From the NCBI GenBank assembly GCA_021814005.1, contig JAKAJC010000007.1, positions 1 through 51,027 on the forward strand: 51,027 nucleotides of DNA, given 5' to 3'. The notes beneath the pieces were generated by a model. That model was not told the DNA's origin, did not search any database, and saw only the letters and a list, made by a program, of their open reading frames with translations. The stretch's first letter is position 1; every line of letters begins with the position of its first letter. Source of the DNA: Microcaldota archaeon (lineage in GTDB: Archaea > Micrarchaeota > Micrarchaeia > Anstonellales > Anstonellaceae). Shown here one piece after another: positions 7,407-10,516 of this stretch. Position numbers and translations under genes: made by a program.

Positions 7407-7520
7407 GGGCCCGTAGCTCAGCCCGGTTAGAGCGCCTGTCTTATATGTGGATTTGTCCGGATTGTCGGACAAGCTCTCGAGGAGAGCAGGTGGTCAAGAG
7501 TTCAAATCCCTTCGGGCCCA
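7407..7520 (+). tRNA. tRNA-Ile (anticodon UAU), intron-containing
   Basis: The acceptor GGGCCCG (7407-7413) pairs with CGGGCCC (7513-7519), with discriminator A at 7520. The D arm is GCTC/GAGC, the anticodon stem CCTGT/GCAGG (7435-7439, 7486-7490), and the T arm AAGAG/CCCTT with one A-C mismatch. With an intron at the canonical 37/38 site, the spliced loop reads CTTATAA, so the anticodon is TAT, decoding AUA. Most archaea instead use a CAU anticodon modified to agmatidine. A TATA box (TTTTAAAC) lies about 25 bp upstream. Confidence 0.88.
7446..7484 (+). other. 39-nt tRNA intron
   Basis: The intervening sequence sits between anticodon-loop positions 37 and 38. It contains a strong internal hairpin (TTGTCCG at 7453-7459 with CGGACAA at 7466-7472). 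CTT (7440-7442) can pair with AGG (7480-7482) to form most of the central helix of a bulge-helix-bulge splice motif. Boundaries are set by the need for a 7-nt anticodon loop. Confidence 0.75.
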
Positions 7521-7522
7521 TA

Positions 7523-8833
7523 TCATTCACTCTGAAAAATAGCTGAATAACGAACCGAAACACCCAGCCTAGTTTTTCTTACATATTTCTTTTCAATCAA
7601 ATTAGCTAGGCGTTGAATTATATTCTCCTTTGAAAGCATGAGTTCAAACTTTTCCCTCATAGCATTTTGAATATCGGACAGAGACGCACCATTTTTTCTC
7701 TCAAGGAGGATTTGATATAGTTGTTTCTCTCTATCTGTGAGGTCTAGTCCACTCTCAATATTATTTTCAACTACGTGTTTTTGTATACTCTGTATGAATG
7801 ATAGTGTTATCCTTTTCTCTCGAGCGGATAGCATCTTCAAGTACGCGTCATGACACATGTGTATAAAACGAAGAGGATTTCCTTTTGCCGATATAGCTAA
7901 TTCCAATAATGCATCTTTTTCAAATGGTAAAATATCCGCCTCCCAATCTATCTTCGGGTTTATCCGTTTAGTTTTCGTAAACATAATTCGCTTAGCGAGT
8001 AATTCACAGAGATGTTCTGGGCTAAAAGGCGGCACTTTTATTTCAACAATATCTTTTACGAACTCCGGATCCTTTTCTTTTATATGCGCATAATCATCAG
8101 TCGGAATAGTATAAATTGGAATAATTATCTCAACTTCATCAAGAACTCTTTGCAGAAACGTATTTTGTTCCGAGTTAGAAAAAATCGTCTGATAATCGTC
8201 AATACTCAACACAACTGGTTTAGTCATATGCGTTTTTATCTCCTTAATTAAATCTAATTCTGTTCCACACCGAAAATTGTGTTTTTTTGCCTCAGTCATC
8301 GCATTTTCAAGGTCATCCTTGTTCTTTATTTCGTATAATCCCGCGGCCAGTGTCTCTTTTTTTTCTTGTTCCTGGCGACTCAAATCAGAGATTTGATTCC
8401 GAGCTTCTTCACACATTGTTTGTATCAATTGAAGTTTGAACTTTTCAATTGAAACTGTTGGCATGACATAGAAATCCGAGTAATAGAAATCTCCATTATC
8501 TTCATTACCTCTTTTTTTTATAAAACTCAGTAGTGTGGATTTTCCAATTCCTTTTTCTCCATAAATTACGATTCGTTTCTTATTCTTTATGCTTGCAACC
8601 AACGCGCGCGCAAGTTCTTTTACAATCTCGACTCTATCTGTAAATAATTTAAGTCCGAGGTCACCTGCAAAATATTTTTCAGTAAAAACGAGGCCCTCTA
8701 GCTTGTACTCATGCGTATAGCCCCGTAAGGTAGTATCAAATTCTTTGCTGAATGCGTCGTAAATTTCATTTGACAGAAAATCACCCAACAATATCCTTCG
8801 TTGGCTCGCCGGAACAAATAAAAGCATCCTCAT
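7523..8833 (-). CDS. AAA+ ATPase with winged-helix C terminus (Orc1/Cdc6-like layout)
   Basis: The 436-residue protein has a Walker A (YGEKGIGKST, about residues 92-101), a Walker B (VVLSIDDYQ, about 207), a sensor-2-like GNPLRFIHMCHDAY, and a C-terminal winged helix (LTDREKQLYQILLERKNGAS). This order resembles archaeal Orc1/Cdc6 and related AAA+ ATPases, but the central part diverges, and a transposition or STAND-type ATPase is also possible. The gene is clearly more AT-rich than its neighbours and ends 3 nt from the tRNA-Ile 3' end, which suggests transfer. Iterons lie upstream at 9001-9053. ATGs at 8833 and 8827 both fit as start. Confidence 0.8.
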   Translation of the reverse strand: MRMLLFVPASQRRILLGDFLSNEIYDAFSKEFDTTLRGYTHEYKLEGLVFTEKYFAGDLGLKLFTDRVEIVKELARALVASIKNKKRIVIYGEKGIGKSTLLSFIKKRGNEDNGDFYYSDFYVMPTVSIEKFKLQLIQTMCEEARNQISDLSRQEQEKKETLAAGLYEIKNKDDLENAMTEAKKHNFRCGTELDLIKEIKTHMTKPVVLSIDDYQTIFSNSEQNTFLQRVLDEVEIIIPIYTIPTDDYAHIKEKDPEFVKDIVEIKVPPFSPEHLCELLAKRIMFTKTKRINPKIDWEADILPFEKDALLELAISAKGNPLRFIHMCHDAYLKMLSAREKRITLSFIQSIQKHVVENNIESGLDLTDREKQLYQILLERKNGASLSDIQNAMREKFELMLSKENIIQRLANLIEKKYVRKTRLGVSVRYSAIFQSE

Positions 8834-9000
8834 GAATGGCTAATCCAGTTACCCAGTAGATTTGAAGTAGGAATCCTCGGTGGGTCATAACTCCCACTCA
8901 TCGGACGGCGGTCCATCATTTTCGCATGGGGTCCTTCACCGCTTCTTGGCTATTCTCTTCATCTCCAACTTTTGGGCCGTTTGCCTGAATTCTAGACGTC
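8834..9000. other. Non-coding stretch upstream of the AAA+ gene
   Basis: I see no gene here. There are two short hairpins, GTGGG/CCCAC (8880-8897) and GGAC/GTCC (8903-8914), close together; on the minus strand they would lie in the 5' leader of the AAA+ ATPase mRNA. Neither looks like a tRNA or a C/D-box RNA. Confidence 0.5.
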
Positions 9001-9053
9001 GGTAATCTTTATTAACTAACAGCTAACTAACCCATAACTAACTTATGATTACC
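9001..9053. repeat. Three 11-bp-spaced iterons inside an inverted repeat
   Basis: TAACTAAC occurs at 9013-9020, 9024-9031 and 9035-9042, an exact 11-bp period. The array is bracketed by GGTAATC (9001-9007) and its perfect inverse GATTACC (9047-9053). The element lies between the AAA+ ATPase gene and pyrB, about 70 bp upstream of the pyrB TATA box. It could be an operator bound on one DNA face, or origin-type iterons. Confidence 0.8.
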
Positions 9054-9111
9054 ACAAAAATGATGTTTTTTGGGCTTTCGCGTATTTGTTTTCTTCCACG
9101 GTCTCTACACG

Positions 9112-9119
9112 CCTTTTAA
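9112..9119 (+). promoter_or_regulatory. TATA box of pyrB
   Basis: CTTTTAAAT lies about 35 bp before the pyrB ATG, giving a predicted start about 8-10 nt upstream of the codon and hence a very short leader. Confidence 0.6.
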
Positions 9120-9150
9120 ATCTCCTTTCACCCAATAATTTGGTGCTGGG

Positions 9151-10059
9151 ATGACTGATGTAATCTCCATCCGTGATTTGGACAAGCCGACAATCGAGAA
9201 GCTGCTCGAGTCGGCCGAAAAAATGGAGAAAAACCTTTTCACCTCACATGAAATGTTCCGCGGCAAAGTGGCGGCCACACTCTTTTTCGAGGCAAGCACA
9301 AGAACTCATCTTTCATTTCAGACGGCGGCGCAGCGCCTCGGCATGAGCATAGTGCCCTACTATCACAACGCATCCTCATCCACAAAGGGCGAGTCACTGC
9401 GCGACACAATCCGAATAGTCGACGGCTATGCCGACATTCTTGTCATGCGCCATCCGCAGGAGGGCGCGGCCCGCTACGCGGCCGAGCAGGCCCAGCATCC
9501 GGTGGTGAATGCGGGCGACGGCGGCAACCAGCATCCGACGCAGACTTTAATCGACCTTTACGCAATTCTGAAAGCAAAAGGAAAAATCAAAGGCCTCAAT
9601 GTGCAGCTTGTCGGCGACCTCAAGCACGCAAGGGCAATGCGCTCGCTTCTCTACGCGCTGGGCATGTTCGGTGCAACCGTCAAGCTGGCGGCGCCCGTGG
9701 GGCTTGAAATGGATCCGGCAATAATCAAGGAGACTGAGGAGAAATTCGGCGCGAAAATAACGCAAACCGCCGACCTCGACCTCTCGGGCAGCGATGTTGT
9801 CTATGTCTGCAGAATACAGAAAGAGCGCTTCGCAGACCCGTATGCAGCCAGCAAGCTGGCCGCCTCATTCAGAATCAGCCCAGAGCTTCTCAAAAACGCG
9901 AAAAGCGACATGATTCTCATGCACCCTCTGCCGAAAATAGATGAAATTCCGCCGGAGGTAGACAACTCGCCGCACGCATATTACTTCCAGCAGGCCCGCT
10001 GCGGCGTGCCGGTGCGCATGGCAGTGCTGGCATACTGCATGAAAGGAAAGGTGGATTGA
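9151..10059 (+). CDS. pyrB: Aspartate carbamoyltransferase, catalytic chain
   Basis: PyrB joins carbamoyl phosphate and aspartate to give carbamoyl aspartate, the committed step of pyrimidine synthesis. The 302 residues contain the carbamoyl-phosphate motif FEASTRTHLSF (about 48-58), the mobile-loop GESLRDTIR, GDGGNQHPTQTLIDLYAI and the C-terminal MHPLPKIDEIPPEVD. Length is standard. The ATG has a TATA box about 35 bp upstream. pyrI follows after one nucleotide, so the two chains are made from one transcript. Confidence 0.98.
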   Translation: MTDVISIRDLDKPTIEKLLESAEKMEKNLFTSHEMFRGKVAATLFFEASTRTHLSFQTAAQRLGMSIVPYYHNASSSTKGESLRDTIRIVDGYADILVMRHPQEGAARYAAEQAQHPVVNAGDGGNQHPTQTLIDLYAILKAKGKIKGLNVQLVGDLKHARAMRSLLYALGMFGATVKLAAPVGLEMDPAIIKETEEKFGAKITQTADLDLSGSDVVYVCRIQKERFADPYAASKLAASFRISPELLKNAKSDMILMHPLPKIDEIPPEVDNSPHAYYFQQARCGVPVRMAVLAYCMKGKVD

Positions 10060-10060
10060 A

Positions 10061-10516
10061 ATGCCCCTGCTTATCGAGCGAATTCAGGAGGGAACGGTCA
10101 TCGACCGTATCCAGGCTTTCCGCGGCATCCGCGTATTGGAAATTCTCAAACTCGTTCTCTCGGGCGGCAAGCAGGAAGAGATGAAGTCGCGCATTGCGCT
10201 TGTCATCAACGTGCCCTCGCACCACATGGGCCGCAAGGACATACTCAAAATCGAGGGCAGGGAGCTGCAGCCGGCGGAAGTGAACAAAATCGCGCTCATC
10301 GCCCCGCAGGCACGCCTTAACGTGATTCGCGGCGGCAAGGTGGCCAAGAAGCAGGATGTCAAGCTGCCGCCTAAACTTGAAGACATCGCAATCTGCCCCA
10401 ATCCGCAGTGCATAAGCCGCTCCGAGCGCGAGAGCAGCGTGTTTCTCAATGAGCCAAGCGGCCTGCGCTGCCAGTACTGCGAGCGGCTGTTCGCGCCAAA
10501 CGAGCTGCTGGTCTGA
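10061..10516 (+). CDS. pyrI: Aspartate carbamoyltransferase, regulatory chain
   Basis: PyrI binds nucleotide effectors and holds the catalytic trimers together. The 151-residue chain has the allosteric domain (GTVIDRIQAFRGIRVLEILKL, then KDILKIEGREL) and a C-terminal zinc domain with CPNPQC and CQYC cysteine pairs, as in the enteric enzyme. It starts 1 nt after the pyrB stop. A short gap separates it from the secreted protein gene at 10521. Confidence 0.97.
   Translation: MPLLIERIQEGTVIDRIQAFRGIRVLEILKLVLSGGKQEEMKSRIALVINVPSHHMGRKDILKIEGRELQPAEVNKIALIAPQARLNVIRGGKVAKKQDVKLPPKLEDIAICPNPQCISRSERESSVFLNEPSGLRCQYCERLFAPNELLV

Follow-up and report, generated by a model that had tools for sequence, protein, structure and literature searches.

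A probable protein-binding array in an insertion between a tRNA gene and pyrB of a micrarchaeal genome

The three-unit repeat array at positions 9001–9053 of the stretch of DNA analyzed here (51,027 nucleotides, hereafter the window) is, on sequence grounds, most probably a site for cooperative protein binding that belongs to an acquired element. The reading that we prefer goes one step further and holds that this element is small and that the user of the array is the element's own protein; we give this version a probability of roughly 40%. The features on which the argument draws are as follows.

7407–7520, plus strand: tRNA gene with an intron, bordering the insertion on the left
7521–9112, no strand assigned: AT-rich insertion of ~1.5–1.6 kb found in this genome only, from the tRNA 3' end to the pyrB promoter
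7523–8833, minus strand: gene for an orphan AAA+ ATPase with a C-terminal winged helix
9001–9007, plus strand: GGTAATC, left arm of the framing inverted repeat
9008–9015, plus strand: TATA-like TTTATTAA, overlapping the first unit, with GGTAATC just before it
9013–9042, plus strand: TAACTAAC three times at an exact 11-bp period (starts 9013, 9024 and 9035)
9047–9053, plus strand: GATTACC, right arm of the framing inverted repeat
9114–9121, plus strand: pyrB TATA box TTTTAAAT, at −37 from the ATG
9151–10059, plus strand: pyrB, the chromosomal context of the insertion
10061–10516: pyrI, next after pyrB

The initial annotation described three repeats at exact 11-bp spacing bracketed by GGTAATC and GATTACC, with an AAA+ gene (7523–8833, minus strand) on one side and pyrB (9151–10059, plus strand) on the other, and both the pattern and the neighbors are confirmed. 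In the 51-kb window the array is the sole 8-mer triple with equal spacing (9–40 bp searched), and dinucleotide shuffles yielded no such triple in either 20 versions of the window or 1000 versions of the local 1.6 kb. The core bases are identical across the three units (24/24), and all differences are confined to the spacers that follow them: AGC, CCA and, after the last unit, TTA. Identical cores with varied spacers suggest a selected 8-bp recognition word, not a recent tandem duplication. The framing arms are perfect 7-bp reverse complements, a feature that arises by chance in ~0.8% of shuffled flanks, and the right arm also keeps the register of the array, where TGATTACC at 9046 can be read as a degenerate fourth unit (5/8 matches). 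The search for other copies that had been proposed found the array to be single in the genome, even when two units with 2 mismatches were accepted. Among the 301 genomes of the phylum searched, no other genome contains an exact pair of units, and one contains a pair with 1 mismatch. A structured RNA at the array was considered and rejected, as Rfam gave no match nearby and folding was no better than that of shuffled sequences.

Comparison with relatives supports the view that the array and the AAA+ gene belong to an acquired, lineage-specific, AT-rich insertion at a tRNA 3' end. In two congeners, G003 and G002, this same tRNA gene, also with an intron, stands directly before pyrB, separated from it by ~50 bp and ~170 bp, respectively, and both the array and the AAA+ gene are absent from the junction. 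Absence of a segment from the same tRNA 3' site in relatives, which serves as a test for a mobile element, is thus seen in both. No DNA match to the 1592-bp insertion was found in 19 relatives. Its GC content is 32–40% over most of its length compared with 53–62% outside, and it contains the array and one gene, that of the AAA+ winged-helix protein, and nothing else. The left edge coincides with the tRNA end, with the AAA+ stop codon beginning ~2–3 bp beyond, and the right edge can be bracketed to ~9053–9112, after the array and before the TATA box of pyrB. A search of the far border for an att copy of the tRNA 3' end in direct orientation gave neither a shared 8-mer nor a 10–20-bp near-match, and no inverted repeat of the tRNA end at the right side and no terminal inverted repeats were found. 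Because the right edge is inexact and an att repeat is lacking, the assignment of the array to the insertion rests on its position and its absence from relatives. By this comparison, the array did not belong to the pyrB control region ancestrally, and it looks like part of a mobile-element remnant and not like a pyrB control switch.

The tRNA gene itself has two peculiarities. Its anticodon is uncertain: ARAGORN with introns gives Ser(tga), which is implausible for the tRNA body, and a reading by hand suggests Ile(UAU). The orthologous gene in G003 (L039, G003:C87, ~1–215) has an extra ~110 bp inserted into its T loop, which may be a second, non-canonically placed intron.

We envisage that a small element was acquired between the tRNA 3' end and pyrB and brought the array with it. 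With a spacing of one helical turn, the three 8-bp sites could then be bound by a multimer along one face of the DNA. As the AAA+ winged-helix ATPase is the sole gene in the insertion, it is taken as the most likely predicted binder; the candidate DNA-binding module would be its C-terminal winged helix, placed by a structure model at about residues 365–431. The likely use would be control of the element's transcription, because the array overlaps both the TATA-like box at 9008 and the predicted start site. The GGTAAT of the left arm also fits an archaeal BRE (RNWAAW), and the TTTATTAA octamer is also the best TATA-like match ahead of pyrB in G003. If the box at 9008 is used, transcription would start near 9035–9040, within the array, and the start region is a usual position for an archaeal repressor site. 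Against this reading, the array lies ~170 bp upstream of the annotated start of the AAA+ gene, and the TATA-like site nearest to that gene is at 8824, away from the array. Since the profile match does not start until 8770, the true start codon may be situated downstream of the annotated 8833.

The same motif occurs well beyond this phylum. An exact-pattern search of viral and genome contigs returned 81 loci, so the initial annotation's own caveat, that many unrelated loci might carry the same low-complexity repeat, proved partly justified: spacers are identical in 21 of the 81, mostly plain tandem repeats in unrelated genomes including archaea, and varied in the other 60. In 32 of these 60, a tyrosine-recombinase gene (Pfam Phage_integrase) could be detected in the flanking sequence retrieved, nearly always on the same side and strand and in several cases 10–60 bp away, and many of the loci lie ~90 bp after rpsI, near its 3' end. 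Among clostridial examples, TAACTAACNNN ×3 (L070, L113, L116, L066 and similar loci) is found within 10–60 bp of where a tyrosine-recombinase gene ends (its 3' end); in many cases rpsI lies ~90 bp ahead of the array, or some other conserved gene is adjacent. These clostridial arrays are possibly a signature of element ends, and from motif identity and position we infer that they may be arm-type integrase sites. A literature search with the motif letters gave no match, and no paper was found that calls such arrays arm-type integrase sites.

These loci open a different interpretation of the window array, namely that it comprises arm-type integrase sites left by an element that a tyrosine recombinase, now lost or acting in trans, had inserted at the tRNA 3' end. 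The clostridial arrays share with it the same 8-bp word in three copies, the 11-bp period, the varied spacers and the location of the element at the 3' end of a conserved gene. Both rpsI and tRNA 3' ends are recognized integration targets (PMC4701971); archaeal integrases favor tRNA 3' ends, and integrated plasmids lacking detectable att sites have been reported (PMC8371274). However, the insertion contains no integrase gene, and the genome's sole Phage_integrase match sits on another contig, C2. The array has no second copy in the genome, no att core duplication is seen, the 1.5 kb between array and tRNA gene is unlike the bacterial layout, and the host is an archaeon. The terms "arm-type" and "arm-binding" do not appear in a review of archaeal recombinases (PMC8371274), and the arm-site status of the clostridial arrays is itself drawn from their position. 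We therefore regard integrase arm sites as a doubtful explanation, and the stronger proposal, that one and the same three-site TAACTAAC array serves both an archaeal mobile element and the clostridial tyrosine-recombinase elements, as very improbable. The single tyrosine recombinase that the genome yielded (L128, G000:C2:122128) has a zinc-ribbon-like tail and is preceded by a gene resembling that of ribosomal protein S10.

The loci with identical spacers raise a simpler possibility, a neutral tandem repeat to which no protein binds, since plain 11-bp TAACTAAC tandem arrays of this kind do occur in unrelated genomes (21/81 loci), archaea among them. In the window, however, the cores are identical and the spacers differ. 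At least five changes all fall in one three-column run, for which a hand calculation gives p of roughly 0.02 under neutral drift, and the framing inverted repeat adds to the case against neutrality. A neutral origin is thus unlikely.

The identity of the AAA+ protein bears on a third alternative, in which an integrated mini-replicon has the repeats as its origin iterons and this protein binds them as an Orc1/Cdc6-type initiator. An initiator-type gene beside repeats is a usual arrangement in plasmids, and archaeal plasmid modules of iterons and Orc1/Cdc6 likewise place an AAA+ winged-helix gene next to direct repeats, here in an integrated segment. Foldseek also returned archaeal and eukaryotic Orc1/Cdc6 proteins as the best matches (2qby_B, E 1.5e-6), but from a low-confidence structure model (mean pLDDT 57.8, pTM 0.42) and with TM-scores of only ~0.3. 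By sequence, the protein is closer to archaeal ATPase_2 (PF01637) than to Orc1/Cdc6: profile comparison with hhalign gave E 2.5e-12 for ATPase_2 versus 9.2e-8 for Cdc6, and Pfam gave a match to AAA_16, one to ATPase_2 at or just below the cut-off, a weak winged-helix match at the end and none to Cdc6_C (PF09079). ATPase_2 proteins share its layout of an AAA+ domain and a C-terminal winged helix, from which the protein of the window differs as a divergent orphan. The label Orc1/Cdc6-like given to the gene at first is therefore acceptable as a loose description of fold and not as a family assignment.

The gene is present in 3 of the 301 genomes of the phylum, the two relatives being distant (22–27% identity). 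No relatives were found in viral contigs, phages, plasmids or genome contigs, and PADLOC, PHROGs and NCBIfam gave nothing beyond weak matches. Neither distant relative has an array of this kind upstream, which indicates that the AAA+ family does not need one. In one of them (G280, L038 5314–6849), the gene likewise points toward the 3' end of a tRNA gene, 160 bp away, a hint of a family of elements associated with tRNA genes. The other (G100, L037 1–3713) has on one side what looks like part of a DNA methyltransferase gene and on the other an IS-like transposase gene, both named by reading. With Cdc6_C absent, relatives that lack the array and a Cdc6 of the genome's own encoded elsewhere (contig C15), iterons of a replication origin are quite unlikely; of the original proposal of an origin element in an integrated replicon, the integration gains support and the origin function does not.

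As to pyrB, the array does lie in the divergent intergenic region, ~108 bp upstream of the pyrB ATG. The gene has its own TATA box beyond the array, which is ~70 bp upstream of that box, and congener G002 has the identical TTTTAAAT octamer at the identical position. Most relatives have a TATA-like box at ~−37 to −53 from the matched pyrB start, and TAACTAAC is found upstream of none of 29 other pyrB loci (258 bp covered in G003). A cooperative operator for pyrB, the other function first suggested, is highly improbable and was rejected as the main reading, because the array is single-copy in the genome and relatives keep pyrB without any such spacing, the very finding that the suggestion had named as its refutation.

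Overall, the array moves from the category of pyrB control to that of cargo of an acquired element. If the shared use of one array by archaeal and clostridial elements were true, either accessory integrase sites of the arm type would function in archaea or the system would have passed between domains. Whatever its role in archaea, the three-site TAACTAAC array that recurs where clostridial tyrosine-recombinase elements end may provide a searchable signature for such elements. For the reading that we prefer, the array and the AAA+ protein encoded beside it would constitute a simple candidate protein–DNA pair in an archaeal genome.
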